A stretch of 64,000 nt of DNA, taken from positions 190,663-254,662 of the forward strand of contig CACZEK010000001.1 of NCBI GenBank assembly GCA_902780135.1. The letters are read 5' to 3'. Below the pieces are notes generated by a model. That model had not been told where the DNA came from. It worked only from the letters and a program-made list of their open reading frames with translations, and did not search any database. Both the position numbers and the translations under genes were made by a program. This DNA is from an uncultured bacterium. Lineage in GTDB: Bacteria > Verrucomicrobiota > Lentisphaeria > Victivallales > UBA1829. This document shows positions 1 to 10,382 of the stretch, in pieces (the first letter of the stretch is position 1; the number at the start of each line of letters is the position of its first letter).

Positions 1-3000
1 CGCGCCGTTCTTGACCGTGATCGCCGCCGCGATCGTGCCGCCGGACTCGACGGACACCGTGCCGCCGCCGAAGACCGTTGCCTGCCCGTCCAGGAACGCC
101 CTGTAGCCGGACACCACGACTTTTGCGCCGTCCGCGACCTGCGTTTCCCCGGTCAGCGTGGCGCTGTAGCCGACCGTGACTTCGCCGCCGACCGACGTCA
201 GACCGGAAACGAATCCGCTGCCTTCGACGAGAAGCTTTCCGCCTTTGGCGACGGTGACGTCGACGGCTGTGCCGCCGCTGCTCACGGTCATGCCCGCGCC
301 GTCGCCGACGGACGCCGAGGACGCCAGCGCTTCGCTCCCGACCGTCATGCTGCCGCCTTTGAGATCCGTCTGGAACGCCGAGGCGCCATAATAGAGAAGC
401 AGGCTGCCGCCGGATACCACCGTCGAGGACACCGTCGCGCTGCTCCCGAGGGTCATGCCGACGGAATCCCCCTTCATCGTGACGCCGGACGCCGATGCGC
501 CGATGTTCCAGACCGACATTTCGGCGGCGTCTTCCAGCGTCACATCGCCCGCGAACGCTCCGGCCGATTCGAGATACAGGCATCCTCTCGAATGCACGAC
601 CGTGCGGGACACGGAGCCGCCGCTGTAGACCCTAAGGTAACCGCCCGCGACGTCGGTGTCATACGCAAGGCCGCCGTTGTAGACTGCCATATATGCGTCG
701 TAGTAACCGGAGGTATGCGGATCCGTGTAATCGACCAGGAGTTTGGTCTTGCTCGCGACCGTGCCGGAGTGGACCGTGGCGCTCTGGCAGCCCGATAGCG
801 TCAGGCCGGTGAAGGTGTTCGCCTCAAACTCAATCGGAGTTCCGTCTCCGTAGCCGGAATTGTAAACGCCGACATAACCGCCGTTTTCTTTGATCTTTCC
901 GGAATACTCTCCCCCGCCGAGGTAAAGGCGGCCGCCCTGTTCGACCGTGAATCTATCCGCGCCCAGAACGACGCCGCCGGATTCGATCTCGAGGCTTGCG
1001 CCGCTGACGATCCGCGTCTCTTTGACCGCGGACAGGACGCCGCCGGAGAAGACGGCGATCACAAAGCCTTTTTCCAGTGCGCCGAAGTCGGTCATGTGAC
1101 CGTCCGCGACCTCGAACGCGCTGCCCGCATAGGTCCCCTGAACAAGGGTCCCCTCAAGCCCGGCGGAGGAGACAAGGGATATCGTCGCCTTTGCGCCGTC
1201 TTCCATTTTGAGGTTCGTGGCGGAGGCTCCGCCGCCGATGTGGACCGAGCCGCCGCTCTGCACGGTCACGTCGTCCGCGATACCCCAGCTGAGCGGATAG
1301 TAGCCGTAGTAGTCGCGCCCATACCCGTCAAGGCGCATGTAACCGCCGCCGTTCACGGTGACGCCCGACGCGGATCCGCCGTAGTAAACCCAGAACTGAC
1401 ATCCGCTTCCGACCGTGGTGTCCGAAGCGACGCCGCCGTAGGAAACATTGAGATAACCGCCGTGGTCTTCGGTCCATGAACGGTCTCCGTAAGTGCTGAC
1501 CACCTGTACCGCGCTGAGCACGGTCCCGGTCGCCTTCGCGCCTTCGCCCAGGCTCATGTAGCCGAGGTTCGCGAGCTTGACGTTTTCGAGCGAACAGGTA
1601 TATCCGGCGACGACGCTCCCGCCGCTGCTCACGACGGCGTCTTTCGCGGTCCCGCCGTACAGCCACATATATCCGCCGTTCACATCGACGTCCTGAAGCG
1701 TTCCGGAAGTCATGGAAACCCTTCCGCCTTCGAGCTTGATGCCGGTCGCCTCGCCGCCTTCAATGCCGAGCAAGGCTCCGGCGGAGGAATAATAGTTTCC
1801 GTATTTATCTTTGACGCCGTGGAACGTCGCGCCGGACAGCGTGCCGCCGGCGGAGACAAAGACCGAGCCCCCGCTGGAAACATCGAGGTTGGTCGCCGTG
1901 CCGCCGGCGGAAACATGGACACCGCCCTGCACGAACGCGATGTCGTCCGCCACGCCGCCGTTCACGATGCCGAGGCCGATCGAGTTCGCGCTGAAATGCT
2001 CGAACCTGCCGTCCTTCAGCAGGATGTCGGTGCCGTCCGCCATCTTGCCGGAGACGAAAGCGTCGGTCGTGGGATCGACCCGGAGATACAAATATGCCTG
2101 TTCTCCGGCAAGAACAAGACCGGTCACGGAACCTCCGAAGACGTTAAGAGAGCCGCTGCTGAAGTTGAGGCCGGTGACGGTCGCTCCGGCGGAAACATAG
2201 AGAACGCCGGTCGTTACGGTCAGGTCTGTCACGGTTCCGCCGGCAGAGACATATCCATAGCCGCCGTTGAAGACCGATTTCTCCAGCGTGCCGCCGTTTT
2301 GGACGAATATCCCGTACCCCATGCCGTCGATATAGGGCGCAATGGCGGAGACCATTCTGCCGCCGTTGAGGATCGTCACGGGTCCCGTTACATTCGCGCC
2401 GCTTACCGTGCCGGCGATGCTGCCGCCGCCGTTCAGGTCGTAGACGACCGCGCCGCCTTCGACCGTCCAGGCTCTCCCGCTCAGGCCGCTCGCCACGGCG
2501 CCGCTGTGGATGAAGCCGGAGCAGTTGTCGTAATAGGACGACCCCAGGGCAATATTGTACGCCGAGCCGCCCTTGTACAGGTGGAACGCGCCGTTGCTGC
2601 TGACGACGGAGACGTCGGTCGCGGTGGTCCCGGAGTGGACCGTGACGTATCCCATGAGTTCCCGGTTGCCGAACGCGTTGGCCTGGAACGTGGGTTCCAC
2701 GCCGTCGGGCAGCTCGAAGCCGCCGCCGTTCTCGACCAGCGTCGCGCCATCCGCCACCGTCGCGCCTGCCTCGACGCGGACGCGCCCGAGTTCGTTCGCG
2801 GTGATGACGCCGCTCGCGGTCGCCCCGGCGGAAAGGACGATGTAGGCGGTCCTGGTGAAGCCTTCGTCGCTCTTGCTGCATCCGCTCAGCGTCGCGCCGT
2901 TCACCACGCCGCCGTCATAGACAAACAGGACGGCGCTGCCGTTGACCGTGATGTCGGTCGCGGTGGTCCCGGCGTGCGCCGTGGCGGAACTGGCCCCGCC

Positions 3001-4104
3001 CTCCAATACCGCGCCCTTGAATTCGTGCGGGGTGAACGTGACGGGGGATGCCGCGGAAACATAGCCGCCGTCCTCGATGATGCCGGTCGCGGTCCCGCGG
3101 ATATACATGCTTCCGCCCGTTTTCACGGTCGTGTTCGTCGCCGTCGTGCCGTTGGAAACATAAAGATATCCCCCGCTTTCGACCGTCAGGCCGTCCGCCT
3201 TGCCGTCGGAAACGGAGATATCCTTGCCGCCGCTGGTCCCGGAAAGGACAGTGCCGGGAGTCAAATAGACATAGAGAACCGCGCCGTCCTCCGCGTCGAT
3301 CCCGGTCACGGTCGCGCTGGAGTAGACGACCAGACGTCCGCGGGAAGCGAGCGTGACCCCGTTCGCGCCTGCGCCGTGATCTATCACCAGCTGGCCCCCG
3401 CTGTTCACCGTGGTGTTGCTTGCCGCGCCGCCGGAAGAGATCCACACGCTGCCCGATCCGTTCACGACCGTATCCAGCGCCGTGCCGCTGTCGAGGACGT
3501 ACATGCGGCCCCAGTAGCCGTTCATGAGCGTGCCGACCGCGGACCCGCCGCGGTAGACGACGATGGACGCCGAGGCGTTCATGCTCGTCCGGAGCGCGGT
3601 GGTCCCGGAGTGGACCGTGACCTCGCAGGACGTCGTGATGTCGAGGTCGGCAAACGTGTTCGGCGTGAAGGTGACGGTCCCGTTGCCGCCCACATAGACG
3701 CATCCGCCGTTTTCCACGATGCCGGTGACATTGTTGCTGCCGTAGAACGAAAGATCAGCCCCGCTGTTCACGGTGACGCCGCTTCCCGTGGCGGATTCGA
3801 AATACATGCTTCCGCCTCCGTTCAGGACCGTATCGTTTGCGGAGCCGTAATAAACGGTCATGTAACCGGCGCTGTTCACGGTCGTGCTGTTCGCCACGCC
3901 GTTCGTGTAGACGCACATGGCGCCGTAGCTGTTCACGATTGTATTGTTCGCTATGCCTCCATTGAGCTGCATGGAGCCGCCGCTGTTCAGCGTGGTGGCT
4001 TCCGCCGTGCCGCCTTCGTTGACGTACATGGAATCGTAGTTGAGGGTCAGACCGCTGACGACAGCGCCGGATTCATTGGGGACGTCGTATCTGGAGTAGG
4101 ACAT
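1..4104 (-). CDS. Giant AIDA-type beta-strand repeat protein, partial (C-terminus beyond window)
   Basis: The reading frame opens at ATG 4104, five bases after a GGAGG ribosome site (4110-4114), and stays open to the left edge, giving 1368 codons without a stop. The protein is almost entirely degenerate repeats of about 18-25 residues rich in Gly, Ser, Thr, Val and Asn, with units such as TVNSGG, SGGTA and GTTAT. This pattern is typical of AIDA-type adhesin or autotransporter passenger repeats that fold as a beta-helix, so a surface or secreted adhesin is likely. The N-terminus (MSYSRYDVPNESG) enters the repeats at once and shows no hydrophobic signal peptide, which is odd for an autotransporter. 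Any translocator domain would lie outside the window. The long frames on the other strand here are shadows of the repeats. Confidence 0.85.
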   Translation of the reverse strand, partial: MSYSRYDVPNESGAVVSGLTLNYDSMYVNEGGTAEATTLNSGGSMQLNGGIANNTIVNSYGAMCVYTNGVANSTTVNSAGYMTVYYGSANDTVLNGGGSMYFESATGSGVTVNSGADLSFYGSNNVTGIVENGGCVYVGGNGTVTFTPNTFADLDITTSCEVTVHSGTTALRTSMNASASIVVYRGGSAVGTLMNGYWGRMYVLDSGTALDTVVNGSGSVWISSGGAASNTTVNSGGQLVIDHGAGANGVTLASRGRLVVYSSATVTGIDAEDGAVLYVYLTPGTVLSGTSGGKDISVSDGKADGLTVESGGYLYVSNGTTATNTTVKTGGSMYIRGTATGIIEDGGYVSAASPVTFTPHEFKGAVLEGGASSATAHAGTTATDITVNGSAVLFVYDGGVVNGATLSGCSKSDEGFTRTAYIVLSAGATASGVITANELGRVRVEAGATVADGATLVENGGGFELPDGVEPTFQANAFGNRELMGYVTVHSGTTATDVSVVSSNGAFHLYKGGSAYNIALGSSYYDNCSGFIHSGAVASGLSGRAWTVEGGAVVYDLNGGGSIAGTVSGANVTGPVTILNGGRMVSAIAPYIDGMGYGIFVQNGGTLEKSVFNGGYGYVSAGGTVTDLTVTTGVLYVSAGATVTGLNFSSGSLNVFGGSVTGLVLAGEQAYLYLRVDPTTDAFVSGKMADGTDILLKDGRFEHFSANSIGLGIVNGGVADDIAFVQGGVHVSAGGTATNLDVSSGGSVFVSAGGTLSGATFHGVKDKYGNYYSSAGALLGIEGGEATGIKLEGGRVSMTSGTLQDVDVNGGYMWLYGGTAKDAVVSSGGSVVAGYTCSLENVKLANLGYMSLGEGAKATGTVLSAVQVVSTYGDRSWTEDHGGYLNVSYGGVASDTTVGSGCQFWVYYGGSASGVTVNGGGYMRLDGYGRDYYGYYPLSWGIADDVTVQSGGSVHIGGGASATNLKMEDGAKATISLVSSAGLEGTLVQGTYAGSAFEVADGHMTDFGALEKGFVIAVFSGGVLSAVKETRIVSGASLEIESGGVVLGADRFTVEQGGRLYLGGGEYSGKIKENGGYVGVYNSGYGDGTPIEFEANTFTGLTLSGCQSATVHSGTVASKTKLLVDYTDPHTSGYYDAYMAVYNGGLAYDTDVAGGYLRVYSGGSVSRTVVHSRGCLYLESAGAFAGDVTLEDAAEMSVWNIGASASGVTMKGDSVGMTLGSSATVSSTVVSGGSLLLYYGASAFQTDLKGGSMTVGSEALASSASVGDGAGMTVSSGGTAVDVTVAKGGKLLVEGSGFVSGLTSVGGEVTVGYSATLTGETQVADGAKVVVSGYRAFLDGQATVFGGGTVSVESGGTIAAAITVKNGA

Positions 4105-4185: not shown

Positions 4186-4276
4186 GCCGTAAATCTTTAA
4201 AACAAAGATTTTTTTCGCGATGGCAGAAAAGGTCTTTTTTTCGCGGCGGCCCATGCTGTTTTTATCGTGACAGAAG

Positions 4277-4320
4277 AAAAAAAAGCCGCATTCCGGCCCG
4301 AACAAACGACGGAATGCGGC
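4277..4320 (-). terminator. Rho-independent terminator of the ExbD/ExbB operon
   Basis: On the minus strand an 11-bp perfect stem (GCCGCATTCCG with CGGAATGCGGC) is followed directly by eight T residues. It begins 20 bases after the stop codon of the last ExbD gene, so it closes that operon and isolates the downstream repeat-protein gene. Confidence 0.9.
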
Positions 4321-4339
4321 GGAGAGGAAAAACGAACGG

Positions 4340-4762
4340 CTACCGCGTGTTGTACTGCTCGTCGTAGGTGCGGACGGCGACGTTGTGGAGTCCGCGGAAG
4401 GAGCAGAGGTCGAGGATCTCCACGACGCGGCTGAACGCGACCGCCTTGTCGCAGTCGATGCGGATGCGGCGGTTCTGTGTTTCCTCGGAGAGCTCCAGCA
4501 GGATCTGGTGCAGCTCGGAGATCGTGACCGGGCGGCCGTTGTAGAACAGCATCTTCTCCTTGTTGACGCCGATGACCATGGTGTCGTTGTCCGGCGGCAC
4601 GTCGAGCGAGGACGTGGAGACGGGCAGGTCGATGTCGATGTCCCGGTTCTCCTTCTTGGCGACCGTGGTGATCAGGAAGAAGATGAGGAGCAGGAACACG
4701 CAGTCGATCAGCGAAGACATGCCGATCTCGAGCTTATCCTCCGATGAACGTCTGATGCGCAT
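4340..4762 (-). CDS. exbD: ExbD/TolR-family biopolymer transport protein (second copy)
   Basis: A 140-residue protein with the ExbD/TolR layout: a short basic cytoplasmic N-terminus, one membrane helix at about residues 17-34, and a periplasmic C-terminal domain. Asp20 in the SLIDCVFLLL stretch matches the protonatable aspartate of ExbD, which carries protons with ExbB. It is the last gene of a four-gene operon, 21 bases after the ExbB gene and followed by a strong terminator. A second ExbD paralogue starts the operon and shares the same IDCVFLLLIFFL core. No TonB or TolA is encoded nearby, so its partner is probably the 959-residue coiled-coil protein of the same operon (inference). Confidence 0.92.
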   Translation of the reverse strand: MRIRRSSEDKLEIGMSSLIDCVFLLLIFFLITTVAKKENRDIDIDLPVSTSSLDVPPDNDTMVIGVNKEKMLFYNGRPVTISELHQILLELSEETQNRRIRIDCDKAVAFSRVVEILDLCSFRGLHNVAVRTYDEQYNTR

Positions 4763-4783
4763 GTGCGGCGGTCCCGGGATTCT

Positions 4784-5518
4784 TTACTTCTGCGCGTCGA
4801 GCGCGGCGAACATGGCTTCGAGGGCTTCCTCGATCGCGAGCTCGGCGATGGAGAGCTTCTGCTTCAGGTAGTGGTACGCGCCGAGGGACGGGATGGCGAG
4901 CACGAGTCCGATGTCGGTGGTGATGAGCGCCTTGCTGATGGAGTCGGCGAGGAGCGCGGCGTCGCCGGTGTCGCCGAGGATGGCGACCTTGGAGAACGCC
5001 TCGATCATGCCGATCACGGTGCCGAGCAGTCCGAGCATCGGCGCCATCGTGGCGATGATCGCCAGCGGATAGCTGCGCTGCCGGTGGCGTTCGATCGCGC
5101 GGGCGGCGGCGTCCGCCACGGCGGACTGGAGGCGCACGATGTCCATGCCGCGATGCTCCACGATGTAGGCTCCGGCGTCGGCGAGGATGCTGGGCTTCGC
5201 CTCGGCTTCCTTGCGGATCGCGTCGTCGTCATGCTTCGCGAGGGCGTCGGCGAAGAAGTCGGCGTAGTAGGCGGGCGCGAGGTATTTTTTGCGCATGCGG
5301 ATGAGGCGTTCGACGAGGAACCCGATGGCGGCGGCGCTGAGGAGCAGGAGCACGGCGGACGTCATGCCGCCGTTGACGATCTCCTGGATCCAGTCGATCG
5401 TCATTTCTTCGGCGGGCGCGTCCGCGGCGGTTTCGGCGGCGTTCTGGGCGGCGAGGGAACCGGAGAGGCAGAAGAGCGCCGCGGCGGAGAGGAACGAAGC
5501 ACGGTTGGGAAGTTTCAT
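4784..5518 (-). CDS. exbB: ExbB/TolQ/MotA-family proton channel protein
   Basis: A 244-residue protein. The start at 5518 is preferred over an upstream ATG because it is preceded by GAAAGG and gives a clear signal-like N-terminus (MKLPNRASFLSAAALF). A membrane helix follows at about 52-70. Two further helices in the C-terminal half carry the MotA/TolQ/ExbB signature, including APMLGLLGTVIGMIEAF and a Thr-rich helix (ALITTDIGLVLAIPSLG). A cytoplasmic domain lies between helices 1 and 2. It sits between the 959-residue coiled-coil gene (48-base gap) and ExbD (21-base gap), so it should form the pentameric channel around an ExbD dimer. Confident at family level; the driven process is unknown. 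Confidence 0.92.
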   Translation of the reverse strand: MKLPNRASFLSAAALFCLSGSLAAQNAAETAADAPAEEMTIDWIQEIVNGGMTSAVLLLLSAAAIGFLVERLIRMRKKYLAPAYYADFFADALAKHDDDAIRKEAEAKPSILADAGAYIVEHRGMDIVRLQSAVADAAARAIERHRQRSYPLAIIATMAPMLGLLGTVIGMIEAFSKVAILGDTGDAALLADSISKALITTDIGLVLAIPSLGAYHYLKQKLSIAELAIEEALEAMFAALDAQK

Positions 5519-5566
5519 GGAGAACCTTTCGTAGTGTTTTATGTGATTCATATTCTGTGATAATCG

Positions 5567-8446
5567 TCAGGGGAGTCTGGGGCGCGTGCGCGTCGGAGCC
5601 GATGTGTTCGGAGCGGAGGCCGCGCCGGGGCGGGCGGACGGCGTCTGCTGCGCGCCGCGGCGCTGTTCGGCGGCGCGCTTCGCGGCTTCCGCGGCGGCGG
5701 GGGTCTCTTCGCGGACCATGACGAACGAGAACTGGCATTCGTCGGGCCCGTTTTCCACGCAGAAGAGGATGTTGTTCCAGCCCTTGCGGAAATGGATGTG
5801 GATGATGTTTTCGTGGAGGCCCCAGGTGCTGAGCTCGTCGTCGAGCCAGACCTGTTCGCCGTTGATCCAGAGCACGCTGGCGTCGTCGGAGCCGATCATG
5901 GCGAGGACGTCGGTGTCCTCCTCGAAATGAACGTCGGTGTAGGCGTAGTAGATCGCGTTGTCCATCTTGTCCGGCGTGCGGATGCAGGTGGTGTCGGTCT
6001 GGACGTAGCGCCAGCGGAGGCGGATGGGCTTCTGCGTGACCGGGTCGATCTTGCCGTCGTACTCGGCGTCGAGGTCGATCCTGGTCTCCGGCTCCCGCTT
6101 CACGCGGTCGGCGATGTGCGTGTATCTGCTGCCGTCGTATTTGCCGTCCCACGGGCCGATCACGTACCAGGAGTCGATGAAGACGAACCCGTGGCGGGCG
6201 GCGTCGCGGCTGACGCGGCGTCCGGGGACGGACTCCGCGATGATGGCGTAGTCGGCGGGCTCGGAGGCGATGCGCTTGCTGTCGGAATTGCCGACCGGAC
6301 TGTAGATGTTGCCGCCGAATTCGAAGTCGAAGTCGCCGCGGAACGCGATGCCGCCACCGCCGTAGGCGTTGCGGTTGTTGCCGAAGCTGGAGCCGTTGCC
6401 GTTGCCTTGTCCCTGCCCCTGGCTCTGGCCCTGTCCCTGGCCCTGCCCCTGCTGCCCGGCGCGTTCCACGCCTTCCCGGCCCATCCGGCCGAGCTGGCGC
6501 ATCATGTCGGCGAGGCTGCCCTGGCCCTGCCCCTGGCGCCCCCCCTGCATGCCGCCCTGCCGGTTGCGCATGGCGCGCTGCTGCATGGCGGAGAAGAGGC
6601 GTTCGGCGGAGAGCGGCATATTGATGCCCGCCATGCGGGCGAGGCTGTTCGCGCGGGAGGAAAGCGAATCGGCGGCGTCCTGCAGCGCGGTCATCTGTTC
6701 GAGCGCGCGGAGGAGCTGTTCCTTGGTCATGTACTGGCCGCCGCCCTGGCCGCCGCCCTGCTGGCCGCCCTGTTCGCCGTTCTGTCCCATCTGGCCGCCC
6801 TGCTGCCCGCCCGCGCTCTGCGACTCGTTGTTCTGCCGGTCGTTCCTGAGGGCGTCGAGGAGTTTGCGGAGGTACTGCTCCGCCTCGAAGGTGGTGAATT
6901 CGTCGTTGTAACGATTGTCCAGCGCCTTCAGGAGGAAGCTTTCGGCATCGGCGTCCATCGCCTTCGCGGCGTCCTGGATTTCGGCGAATTCCGGGTCGGT
7001 GTTGTAGATCCACTCGGACAGCTTCGAGTTGATCTCGCTGCGGTGGTTCAGCGCGGCCATGTACGCGGTGTTCGAGAGGTCCGGGAGCTTGCGCAGGACG
7101 GTCGTCTCCGTGTCCTTCAGCTGGCGGTCGAATCCCTGCATGTCGCGGGACGCGGTCTGGAGGAACGACAGGTCCTGCCTGGCGGTGTCGGCGTCGTTGG
7201 CTTCGACCGCCTTTTTGATCGCCTCGTAGGCGCGCCGCGCCTGCTCCATCGTGTGCTTCGCGTTCTCGTCGACCTCGTTCACCAGATAGATCTCGAAGGA
7301 CGGGACGTCGTAATCGAAATCGTAATAATCATCGTAGTCGTCGTCATAGACGACCGCCGGCCCGACGATGCCGGGCCTGGGGAGGGTGCGCTGACGGCGC
7401 GGACGGTTCTTGCGTTCCTCCTCCGCCTTCCGGATGCGCTCCCGGCTGTCCTCCGCGGTCTTCTTCGCCTGTTCGTAGGCTTCCTGCGTGAGGCGGAACA
7501 CCTCTTCGGCGGCGTCGAGTATCTTCTGCGGGTCCTCGGCTGCGCCGTCCTTCTGCGCCAGGTCGCGCGAGAAATGCTCCATGGAGGTCTGGTCCATGTT
7601 CTTGTTCAGCGAGTCCATGGACCGGATCGCGTTCTGGTAGGCGTTCAGCTCGGCGTACTTCGTGTCGAGCTGCTCCTCCTTCGCCGCCATGAAGTCCTTC
7701 AGCTGCTGGAGCGTGGCGTCGACGGGCGGCATTTCCGGCGGGGTGTTCATGATGCCGATGTCGTACGCGCCGGAAAGGTCGCCGCTGAGGATGGAGTCGA
7801 TCATGCGCTCCAGTTCGAGCGACTGCCATTCGGCGGTGGCGGAGTCGACGCCGTAGTCCAGGAAACTGGACGGGTTCGCGCGGAATCTCTCGCTGTTCGC
7901 CTTCATCGCCTCCAGGCGGCCGCGGAAAACGGGGACCTTGTCGTCGCCCGGATGCTGTTTCAGCTCCTCGCGGATCTCCCCGGCGATGCGGGCGTTCTCC
8001 GCGAACGGCACGACGTAGTCGAATTCGTTGGACAGGTTTTCGGCGATGTCGAACAGGCGTTCGAACGCCTCCTCCTCCGGGTCGCGCAGTTCGGAGTAGA
8101 TCTCCTTCAGCTCCTCCTTGCGCTCCTCCATCTTCTCAAGGGTCTCCTCGACCTCCTCCAGTTTCTTGCGGATCTCCTTTTCCTTGCGCTTCTGGACGCG
8201 GTCGCGTATCTTCTTGAGTTCGGCGGGCGGGGCCTCCTTCTTGATCTTCTCGGGGTCGTTCTTGTGGGCTTCGCGCTTCGCCTCGTTTTCCTGTTTCTGC
8301 TTCAGCGCCTCCTCCAGCGAATACCGGCTGTAGCGGATGAAATCGAGCTGCCAGGCGGCGACGAACGCGGCGAGGTAGCAGAGGAGCGTGAGTCCCCAGA
8401 TGACGGCTGTGGTGCGGCCGGACTGCATGTTGCGTTTGCTGTTCAT
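5567..8446 (-). CDS. Large membrane-anchored coiled-coil protein with Gln/Gly-rich linker and C-terminal beta-sandwich-like domain
   Basis: A 959-residue protein that I do not recognise as a named family. The start at 8446 has an AGAGAGG ribosome site seven bases upstream. Residues 11-33 form a single membrane helix. Residues about 40-360 are highly charged (Glu/Lys/Arg) and read as long coiled coils. A Tyr/Asp-rich patch lies at about 365-380. Residues about 540-690 are Gln/Gly/Asn-rich and low complexity. Residues about 710-945 form a compact domain with SWYVIGPW and GSDDASVLWINGEQVW, reminiscent of PA14-like or galactose-binding-like beta-sandwiches. It lies between ExbD (13-base gap) and ExbB, so it may transmit force from the proton channel through the periplasm, as TolA or TonB does. 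That role is inference. Confidence 0.85.
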   Translation of the reverse strand: MNSKRNMQSGRTTAVIWGLTLLCYLAAFVAAWQLDFIRYSRYSLEEALKQKQENEAKREAHKNDPEKIKKEAPPAELKKIRDRVQKRKEKEIRKKLEEVEETLEKMEERKEELKEIYSELRDPEEEAFERLFDIAENLSNEFDYVVPFAENARIAGEIREELKQHPGDDKVPVFRGRLEAMKANSERFRANPSSFLDYGVDSATAEWQSLELERMIDSILSGDLSGAYDIGIMNTPPEMPPVDATLQQLKDFMAAKEEQLDTKYAELNAYQNAIRSMDSLNKNMDQTSMEHFSRDLAQKDGAAEDPQKILDAAEEVFRLTQEAYEQAKKTAEDSRERIRKAEEERKNRPRRQRTLPRPGIVGPAVVYDDDYDDYYDFDYDVPSFEIYLVNEVDENAKHTMEQARRAYEAIKKAVEANDADTARQDLSFLQTASRDMQGFDRQLKDTETTVLRKLPDLSNTAYMAALNHRSEINSKLSEWIYNTDPEFAEIQDAAKAMDADAESFLLKALDNRYNDEFTTFEAEQYLRKLLDALRNDRQNNESQSAGGQQGGQMGQNGEQGGQQGGGQGGGQYMTKEQLLRALEQMTALQDAADSLSSRANSLARMAGINMPLSAERLFSAMQQRAMRNRQGGMQGGRQGQGQGSLADMMRQLGRMGREGVERAGQQGQGQGQGQSQGQGQGNGNGSSFGNNRNAYGGGGIAFRGDFDFEFGGNIYSPVGNSDSKRIASEPADYAIIAESVPGRRVSRDAARHGFVFIDSWYVIGPWDGKYDGSRYTHIADRVKREPETRIDLDAEYDGKIDPVTQKPIRLRWRYVQTDTTCIRTPDKMDNAIYYAYTDVHFEEDTDVLAMIGSDDASVLWINGEQVWLDDELSTWGLHENIIHIHFRKGWNNILFCVENGPDECQFSFVMVREETPAAAEAAKRAAEQRRGAQQTPSARPGAASAPNTSAPTRTRPRLP

Positions 8447-8459
8447 GTCAATGCCTCTC

Positions 8460-8939
8460 TTAATCCGATGTGCCGGGGATGTAGAACCGGGATTCGCGGT
8501 AGTCGCGCATGCGGACGTCGACCTTGTTCAGGTGGTTGATCTGGAGCTTGTCGAGCATGTCGATCACGGTCTGGAACTCCACGTCGGGGTCCGCGTAAAG
8601 GCGCACGTTGATCTCCTCGCCCGCGCCCTGCGCCATCCGCCCCAGGTTCTCCACGAACTTGTCCACGTCCGGGACGGCGCGGAAATCCGGGCGCCCGTCC
8701 TGAAGGCGGCGGTCCGCCGAATAATACTTGCCGTCCTTGCCGATCGCCAGGATCACGCGGCGCGCGTCCATGCGTTCGGAGATGGTCACGGCGGGGTCCG
8801 GGACCTCGATCGGGATCTGTTTTTCGAGCTTCTTCATCATGGTGGTGACGAGAAAGAAGATCAGGAGGAGGAAGACGCAGTCGATCAGGGGCGACATTTC
8901 GAGCGTGACGTCGTCATCGTCTTTTTTGCGGATTCTCAT
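8460..8939 (-). CDS. exbD: ExbD/TolR-family biopolymer transport protein (first copy)
   Basis: A 159-residue ExbD/TolR homologue and the first gene of the operon. It has an acidic/basic N-terminus (RIRKKDDDD), one helix at about 17-35 with the conserved Asp20 (SPLIDCVFLLL), and a periplasmic C-terminal domain of about 120 residues. It is longer than the second ExbD (140 residues) and differs in the periplasmic part, so the two could form a heterodimer or serve different partners. It is 13 bases upstream of the coiled-coil gene. No convincing promoter was seen in the 276 bases upstream. Confidence 0.92.
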   Translation of the reverse strand: MRIRKKDDDDVTLEMSPLIDCVFLLLIFFLVTTMMKKLEKQIPIEVPDPAVTISERMDARRVILAIGKDGKYYSADRRLQDGRPDFRAVPDVDKFVENLGRMAQGAGEEINVRLYADPDVEFQTVIDMLDKLQINHLNKVDVRMRDYRESRFYIPGTSD

Positions 8940-9215: not shown

Positions 9216-10301
9216 TTATTCCGCGGGCTTTTCGTCTTCGGCGGGGGCGGGCTCGACGGATTCGAGCGCCTGCCATTCACGCTGTTTCGCCTGTTCCTCG
9301 GCGTTCGGGAACGCGGAGATAAAACCGTCGCCGGGCTTGGATCCTTTCGGACGGGGGCCGCCGTTGAAGCCGAAACCTTTTTCATACTGGGAGGCGGTGA
9401 CGGGGCCGACGGGCTGGTAGCCGGGATGAACGTCGGACTGATGGCCGAGACGCTGGGAGAAGAGCCAGTCCCAGGTGTCCTTGCTGGAATACGCTTTGTC
9501 CCAGCAGTTGTGGCCGACGCCGAAGTATTCGCGCAGGAAGACGTTCCGGTTGCCGGTCTTCCGCATGGTGATGTACATCCAGCGGGCGAGCTGGGGCGGG
9601 ACGGTCGTGTCGTCGCTGCCGTGGAAGATCATGACGGGCAGGTCGCTCATCTTTTCGGCGCGGTTCGGATCGCTGCCGCCGCAACAGGGCATGCCGGCGG
9701 CGAAGATGTCGGTGCCGTAACGGGCGAGGAGGTCCCAGCAGCCGTAGCCGCCCATGGAGAGGCCGGTCACATAGACGCGCTTCCTGTCCGCCTTGAACTC
9801 TTCGATCTTCTTTTCGATCAGGACGGGGATCATGCCGAGCGCCTGATAGGGTTCCTCCATGAGGTCGCCCATGGCGCCGCCGCGGTGGAGCGGGGCCCAG
9901 ACCTGGTCGCCCGGGCATTCGGGAGCCAGCACGATGACTTTATGCTTGCCTTCGCGCATCTGCTTCACGATCTCGGGCACGGCGAGACGGAGCTGCGCGA
10001 GGTTCTCCTCGCCGCGTTCGCCGAAGCCGTGCAGGAAGACCAGGATCGCGAACTTGCCGGGCTCGTCCTCATTGTACACGCCCTGGCAGTACCGCAGTAC
10101 GCCGTTGCAGTTCGTCAGGACTTCCTGCTTCATGTCAAGCTCATTCAGCGTGCGGATCTCGTTGGCGAATCTCTGCTGGATCTGTTCGGACGGTTCCTCC
10201 ATCGGGGTGATGACGGCGCTTTTCAAAGCGGGATCGGAGGAGCAGGCGGCGCCGAAAGCGGCGAGCGCGGCGCATCCGAGCACGAGCAAATGTTTTTTCA
10301 T
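9216..10301 (-). CDS. Secreted lipoprotein serine esterase / predicted peptidase (alpha/beta hydrolase)
   Basis: A 361-residue protein. The start at 10301 is chosen over an upstream in-frame ATG because it gives a lipoprotein signal (MKKHLLVLG...FGAAC) and has an AAAGGA site. The alpha/beta-hydrolase elements are visible in order: an oxyanion region HGFGERGEENLAQL, a nucleophile elbow GLSMGGYG, an acid-containing HGSDDTTVPP, and a catalytic-His region GVGHNCW. The architecture matches the esterase/'predicted peptidase' group related to feruloyl and PHB-depolymerase-type esterases. It should be anchored to a membrane and act on an ester substrate outside the cytoplasm, perhaps glycan esters. 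It has its own promoter, divergent from the potassium channel. Confidence 0.85.
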   Translation of the reverse strand: MKKHLLVLGCAALAAFGAACSSDPALKSAVITPMEEPSEQIQQRFANEIRTLNELDMKQEVLTNCNGVLRYCQGVYNEDEPGKFAILVFLHGFGERGEENLAQLRLAVPEIVKQMREGKHKVIVLAPECPGDQVWAPLHRGGAMGDLMEEPYQALGMIPVLIEKKIEEFKADRKRVYVTGLSMGGYGCWDLLARYGTDIFAAGMPCCGGSDPNRAEKMSDLPVMIFHGSDDTTVPPQLARWMYITMRKTGNRNVFLREYFGVGHNCWDKAYSSKDTWDWLFSQRLGHQSDVHPGYQPVGPVTASQYEKGFGFNGGPRPKGSKPGDGFISAFPNAEEQAKQREWQALESVEPAPAEDEKPAE

Positions 10302-10354
10302 GATGACAGGTGTCCTTTCGGTTGAATTGGCATTGTCTTTCGCCTTTCGAATAA

Positions 10355-10382
10355 AATATACGCGTTTTTTCGGGAAATTCAA
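10355..10382 (-). promoter_or_regulatory. Promoter of the lipoprotein esterase gene
   Basis: On the minus strand TTGAAT (10382-10377), a 16-base spacer and TATATT (10360-10355) lie about 55 bases upstream of the chosen start. This placement also supports the start at 10301, since the longer frame would begin inside the promoter. Confidence 0.65.

Follow-up and report, generated by a model that had tools for sequence, protein, structure and literature searches.

The window (the whole stretch of 64,000 nucleotides analysed here, from an uncultured bacterium of the order Victivallales) carries a four-gene locus whose products probably form a self-contained envelope transducer, driven by protons, that belongs to the TonB/TolA class and is equipped with a PA14-like end domain of its own. 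The observations behind this reading are the linkage of the genes, the channel residues, a helix signature in relatives with a single ExbD, a duplication of ExbD and the modelled fold of the end domain, hereafter CT. The module looks like a relative of the TonB and Tol machines that has gone undescribed, and no earlier description of the ExbB-ExbD-arm-CT module was found in the open-licence full-text literature.

The four minus-strand genes of the ORF list occupy positions 8939-4340 in the order ExbD1, 959-aa protein, ExbB and ExbD2, with intergenic spacings of 13, 15 and 21 bp (Table 1). The initial annotation had described four closely set genes ending at a strong terminator, with two ExbD paralogues carrying Asp20 and one ExbB; coordinates, gaps, folding energy, Pfam matches and residues all agree with this description. 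A simple terminator consensus scan gives 9 sites against 8.7 expected and is uninformative without the fold computation. The periplasmic part of ExbD1 is longer than that of ExbD2. Judging from the sequence around its start, ExbB probably begins at the ATG at 5518, after GAAAGG, which would give a protein of 244 aa with a signal-peptide-like N-terminus. Just downstream of the terminator there is a very long repetitive ORF (window 1-4104, minus strand), adhesin- or autotransporter-like by eye. An esterase-like protein (9216-10382, minus strand; Peptidase_S9/PHB depolymerase-like) is encoded upstream of the operon and is not a conserved neighbour.

Table 1. Features of the four-gene unit and their positions in the window.
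Feature	Position	Strand	Basis
ExbD1, 159 aa, first paralogue	8460..8939	-	Pfam ExbD 1.2e-19; single TM with Asp20
959-aa arm-CT fusion protein	5567..8446	-	ORF, helix/domain layout; no Pfam match
Arm N-terminal membrane helix, residues 13-33	8348..8410	-	T-LLC-Y in place of S-xxx-H
CT domain, modelled as PA14-like beta-sandwich, about residues 730-920	5690..6259	-	Profile search, alignments, AlphaFold2, Foldseek
ExbB, 255 aa (likely start 5518)	4784..5551	-	Pfam MotA_ExbB 7.5e-26; alignment
ExbD2, 140 aa, second paralogue	4340..4762	-	Pfam ExbD 2.1e-26; Asp20 kept; D2 clade
Intrinsic terminator closing the four-gene unit	4276..4330	-	Stem-loop of -22.9 kcal/mol, z = -4.6 (fold computation), then T8

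The 959-aa protein has no match in Pfam, hence no TonB_C, FHA or TolA domain III, and its best NCBIfam value (0.67) is not meaningful. From the N-terminus it consists of a short cytoplasmic segment, the membrane helix, charged helices reaching to about residue 540, a linker, CT and a Pro/Ala tail. Residues 34-120 of the arm are 56% charged, and residues 541-730, the linker, are 39% Gln plus Gly and are predicted by AlphaFold2 to be mostly disordered, with short weak helices only; the single N-terminal membrane helix and the Gln/Gly-rich linker noted earlier could thus both be located. The same protein had been called a giant coiled coil. The arm is indeed helical and charged, but instead of a single continuous coil AlphaFold2 places in it, with modest confidence, many separate helices that reach about 50 residues at most. 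The full-length model, with a pLDDT of 57, is too weak for use outside CT.

Modelled alone from an alignment of 82 sequences, CT reaches a pLDDT of 81, with much of the core above 90, and folds into a beta-sandwich, in line with the C-terminal domain expected from the sequence. Its Foldseek neighbours are PA14-containing glycosidases, the adhesins Cea1A and Epa1, a Marinomonas PA14 lectin and CBM35/CBM6, at low TM-scores (0.3-0.4 of the query) and with large rmsd; among viral structure models the neighbours are PA14 and GLEYA domains. The model, at these modest TM-scores, points to a PA14-like beta-sandwich. CT thus appears to share its fold with PA14 (PF07691) and GLEYA lectins, CBM35 and CBM6, but the sequence match is weak (PF07691 is matched by 3 of 23 CT members, with a best E-value of 0.031), and CT has additional conserved motifs, WY-x-IGP and PPE-x3-DLDA-x-Y, that set it apart from the PA14 domain.

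Given its modelled fold, CT may bind a glycan. An Asp-Asp pair, a Trp and an Asn are invariant in the alignment, and the Asp-Asp pair is suggestive, though only suggestive, of Ca2+-dependent glycan binding as in PA14 lectins. Sugar binding is not universal among PA14-like folds, and jelly rolls of this kind are frequently accessory domains. It is therefore a real possibility, though on balance a doubtful one, that CT is a structural spacer or protein-binding domain, with an outer-membrane protein as the real target, a variant compatible with the motor part of the preferred explanation. The DD...W-N-G pattern of CT, common to other jelly-roll proteins, fits such a role. On the other side, though not decisively, the invariant residues suggest a ligand site, and in some lineages CT forms an exported protein by itself, which is conserved in its own right. 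In these split lineages (e.g. L052, L056, L062, L105, L117 and L128) the gene that separates ExbD from CT encodes a protein of about 340-440 aa with a membrane helix and a helical region, and CT itself starts with a signal-peptide-like sequence; elsewhere, including the window, arm and CT are fused. That the two exist as a separable gene pair argues that arm and end domain are partners in function.

How far CT extends beyond the window was assessed at several levels. Searches with the 959-aa sequence were positive in 13/13 genomes of the window's genus, and a single one of 23 genomes from other genera of the family matched, and that weakly. In a sample of 388 genomes from the phylum, 28 matched the CT profile strongly (E < 1e-50), and the following matches began at E ~1e-24; other genera of the window's family were represented in part, and those sampled gave weak matches or none. 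A scan of named genomes yielded 56 CT loci from Verrucomicrobiota, Kiritimatiellota/Lentisphaerae, Planctomycetota (including Adhaeretor, Rhodopirellula and Phycisphaerae) and one KSB1 bacterium, a sample skewed to single-ExbD members because a narrower alignment was used for the scan. CT thus defines a family found in Planctomycetota, in Verrucomicrobiota as delimited by GTDB and in one KSB1 genome. ExbB/ExbD-like genes have reportedly been connected with mucin use in Akkermansia; no named Akkermansia record is among the 56 loci. A single-protein search of viral contigs gave no match. A second CT system, shorter than the first (L077-L081), occurs in several species of the genus; it consists of an ExbB of 470-520 aa (longest ORF), two ExbDs and a CT protein of about 540 aa, and was not found in the window's genome.

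CT is almost always accompanied by the channel genes. After removal of near-identical copies, and with at least 2.5 kb of upstream sequence available, profiles of ExbB and ExbD both matched within 4.5 kb on the same strand at 63 of 66 distinct strong loci, compared with none of 20 distant, weak CT-like loci scored at the same upstream cover. Such near-obligate linkage is the co-occurrence anticipated by the initial annotation, and homologues of the 959-aa protein are not commonly found away from ExbB/ExbD. The exceptions are L161, L137 (a short frame that is probably broken) and L130, where an arm with S-x3-H has no ExbB/ExbD across 7.8 kb upstream. Tandem CT proteins follow one ExbB-ExbD pair at no fewer than three loci (L095, L096 and L103). 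Since the gene set recurs in at least three phyla, it does not appear to be a chance cluster, and since the comparison of neighbours across loci revealed no further conserved gene, the module is self-contained.

The residues of the channel itself are largely conserved. The membrane Asp is present in every full-length family ExbD examined, ambiguous rows reading LLD or MMD; the tally leaves out one truncated entry, one mis-framed entry and the unrelated protein of L148. In the ExbB alignment the equivalents of Thr148, Thr181 and Pro190 (E. coli ExbB numbering) are kept almost throughout, with Met at position 148 in L055 as the one exception, and Ser34 has a Ser equivalent in all 44 single-ExbD systems, whereas Trp38 is absent throughout the family. 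ExbB of the window keeps Ser34, Thr148, Thr181 and Pro190 and has Ile at the position of Trp38. The proton-channel residues of ExbB/ExbD, namely the transmembrane Asp of ExbD and the pore Thr residues and Pro190 of ExbB, are thus in place in the window.

In E. coli, Ser16 and His20 of TonB and Ser18 and His22 of TolA contact Ser34 and Trp38 of ExbB or the TolQ equivalents, and the His of this helix motif is essential (PMC12215075). The corresponding [S/A]-x3-H is found in the arm helix of 44/44 deduplicated single-ExbD systems, with Ser in all but one, which has Ala; the helices of L064, L109 and L131 were inspected by hand, and that of L089 in a separate check. Of 160 control ORFs from the neighbourhood whose N-terminus contains a hydrophobic segment, 2 have S-x3-H and 14 have [S/A]-x3-H. 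The 959-aa protein had been proposed to be the arm driven by ExbB/ExbD, and the linkage counts together with Ser-x3-His in every single-ExbD relative speak for that role. However, the motif (SHLS) occurs neither in the window's own arm, which reads T-LLC-Y, nor in its clade. The strongest signature is therefore missing from the whole clade with two ExbDs, and this counts against a transducer.

Apart from L160, the two-ExbD systems group in a single clade on the ExbB tree; L160, which stands by itself, carries [S/A]-x3-H and retains both the arm His and ExbB Ser34. The ExbDs of the clade fall into two sister groups, D1 and D2, derived from one ancient duplication (support of 96 for the pair, 99 for D1 and 82 for D2); ExbD1 of the window belongs to D1 and ExbD2 to D2, the Asp is retained in both paralogues, and the two ExbDs of L160 lie outside this duplication. 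In the two-ExbD clade the position of the arm His is occupied by Tyr in the window and by Gln, Asn, Val, Ser, Leu and others elsewhere, and ExbB Ser34 is often replaced by Gly, Ala, Thr or Val, remaining Ser in the window's genus and in L051. This co-variation of arm His and ExbB Ser34 is striking, but the His was lost once on the tree, with the two-ExbD clade, so neither the co-variation nor a link between the second ExbD and the loss carries statistical weight. The nearest ExbB relatives of the window clade sit in other classes of the phylum, so that horizontal acquisition is conceivable.

The loss of the His, the low complexity of the linker and a CT that could tether the channel to the glycan layer would all suit an arm-CT protein that is a structural or anchoring subunit, such as a glycan-tethered stator or gate, and transmits no force. 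We regard this as improbable, since the single-ExbD relatives retain the His that is essential for Ton/Tol activity and the proton residues of the channel are kept. One source (PMC8928145) notes work that points to a structural role for the His and lists a report of its replacement by Asn in TonB, so its loss alone does not mean that coupling is lost. On the preferred reading the His-less arm of the window would still couple.

One ExbB combined with two ExbD paralogues and a transmembrane linker protein is also the composition of the Myxococcus AglR, AglQ and AglS system (PMC3169522), and the window clade matches it in all three respects. The locus could accordingly encode a motor of the AglRQS/Glt kind, driving surface gliding or the transport of a cell-surface polymer instead of pulling on a fixed envelope target. 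Against this, the arm has no FHA or TonB_C match, the operon is a different one, Glt-like neighbours, TPR proteins and outer-membrane proteins are not conserved with the module, and most members of the family have a single ExbD. Such a motor is thus unlikely here.

Comparison with the two classical systems places the module near both of them. With TolQ-TolR-TolA it shares the ExbB/TolQ channel, the essential Asp of ExbD/TolR and the long helical periplasmic part of a single-pass arm, and its single-ExbD relatives match the Ser-x3-His helix of TolA; in contrast to Tol-Pal, CT is not TolA domain III and no TolB or Pal genes are linked. With TonB-ExbB-ExbD it shares the channel, the helix motif of the relatives and an arm extending into the periplasm, but the window arm lacks a TonB_C domain and a Pro-rich spacer. 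The module falls outside the strict TonB and Tol families, because tests for the C-terminal domains and the partner proteins by which these are defined were negative.

The genomes point the same way. A TonB-dependent-receptor Plug domain is present in 15 of 28 carriers of the module and absent in 13, namely six others and the seven sampled genomes of the window's genus (the window's genome and six congeners). TolB_N was not detected by profile search in any of the 28. The initial annotation had reported no TonB, TolA, TolB or Pal; at genome level this is correct for TolB_N, but the window's genome encodes a single TonB_C protein, which belongs to another ExbB-ExbD operon, and also a single OmpA/Pal-like protein, unlinked to the module. 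As far as profiles tell, the module in the window's genus serves neither standard TonB-dependent receptors nor standard Tol-Pal. An arm that acts as an alternative TonB and energises outer-membrane TonB-dependent receptors could account for the TonB/TolA helix motif in relatives and for the carriers with a Plug domain; it is very unlikely in view of the missing TonB_C, the 13 carriers without Plug and the separate ExbB-ExbD-TonB_C operon.

Five ExbB-family loci are present in the window's genome. At L149 (contig C5), the gene after ExbB-ExbD encodes a 316-aa protein that matches TonB_C, in a genome in which no Plug domain was detected. L150 (contig C1, ~26.5-28.4 kb) is a second ExbB-ExbD-ExbD set with no CT protein beside it and, upstream, a 1157-aa repeat-rich protein and another TPR-like protein. 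L148 (contig C7) comprises ExbB, an ExbD without the usual Asp motif in its helix and a 264-aa single-TM protein, with a 944-aa repeat-rich protein upstream.

Proton-channel proteins next to a long extra protein also bear a resemblance to anti-phage systems of the Zorya kind, in which an ExbB/MotA-like channel is combined with an effector. PADLOC gave no match for any of the four proteins, including none to ZorA/ZorB, the fourth protein is predicted to be periplasmic, and no effector neighbours are conserved; we consider a defence function extremely unlikely.

Taken together, a proton-driven envelope transducer could work as follows. ExbB would form the proton channel together with the two ExbD paralogues, which probably pair as a heterodimer, and the N-terminal helix of the 959-aa protein would dock onto the outer face of ExbB. 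Proton flow might then produce movement or tension along the charged helical and Gln/Gly-rich periplasmic stretch, so that the PA14-like end domain engages a periplasmic or outer-membrane target, for which a glycan is the most plausible candidate. Related systems would divide the same task between a transmembrane arm and an exported CT protein, the two being fused in the window. More tentatively, and at somewhat less than even chances, the module might add to Ton, Tol and Agl/Glt another class of machine powered by ExbB/ExbD. Its arm would pull directly on glycans through a glycan-binding domain of its own, needing neither a TonB-dependent receptor nor TolB, and the window clade would have an obligate ExbD heterodimer and an altered arm dock.

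Proteobacteria are the group in which ExbB/ExbD-powered envelope machines are known best. The present module recurs in Planctomycetota and Verrucomicrobiota, where little is understood of envelope physiology and of how polysaccharides are handled, and its conserved, tractable end domain makes the ligand directly testable. The two-ExbD clade, in turn, offers a natural experiment on the loss of the Ton/Tol helix His that is essential in E. coli.
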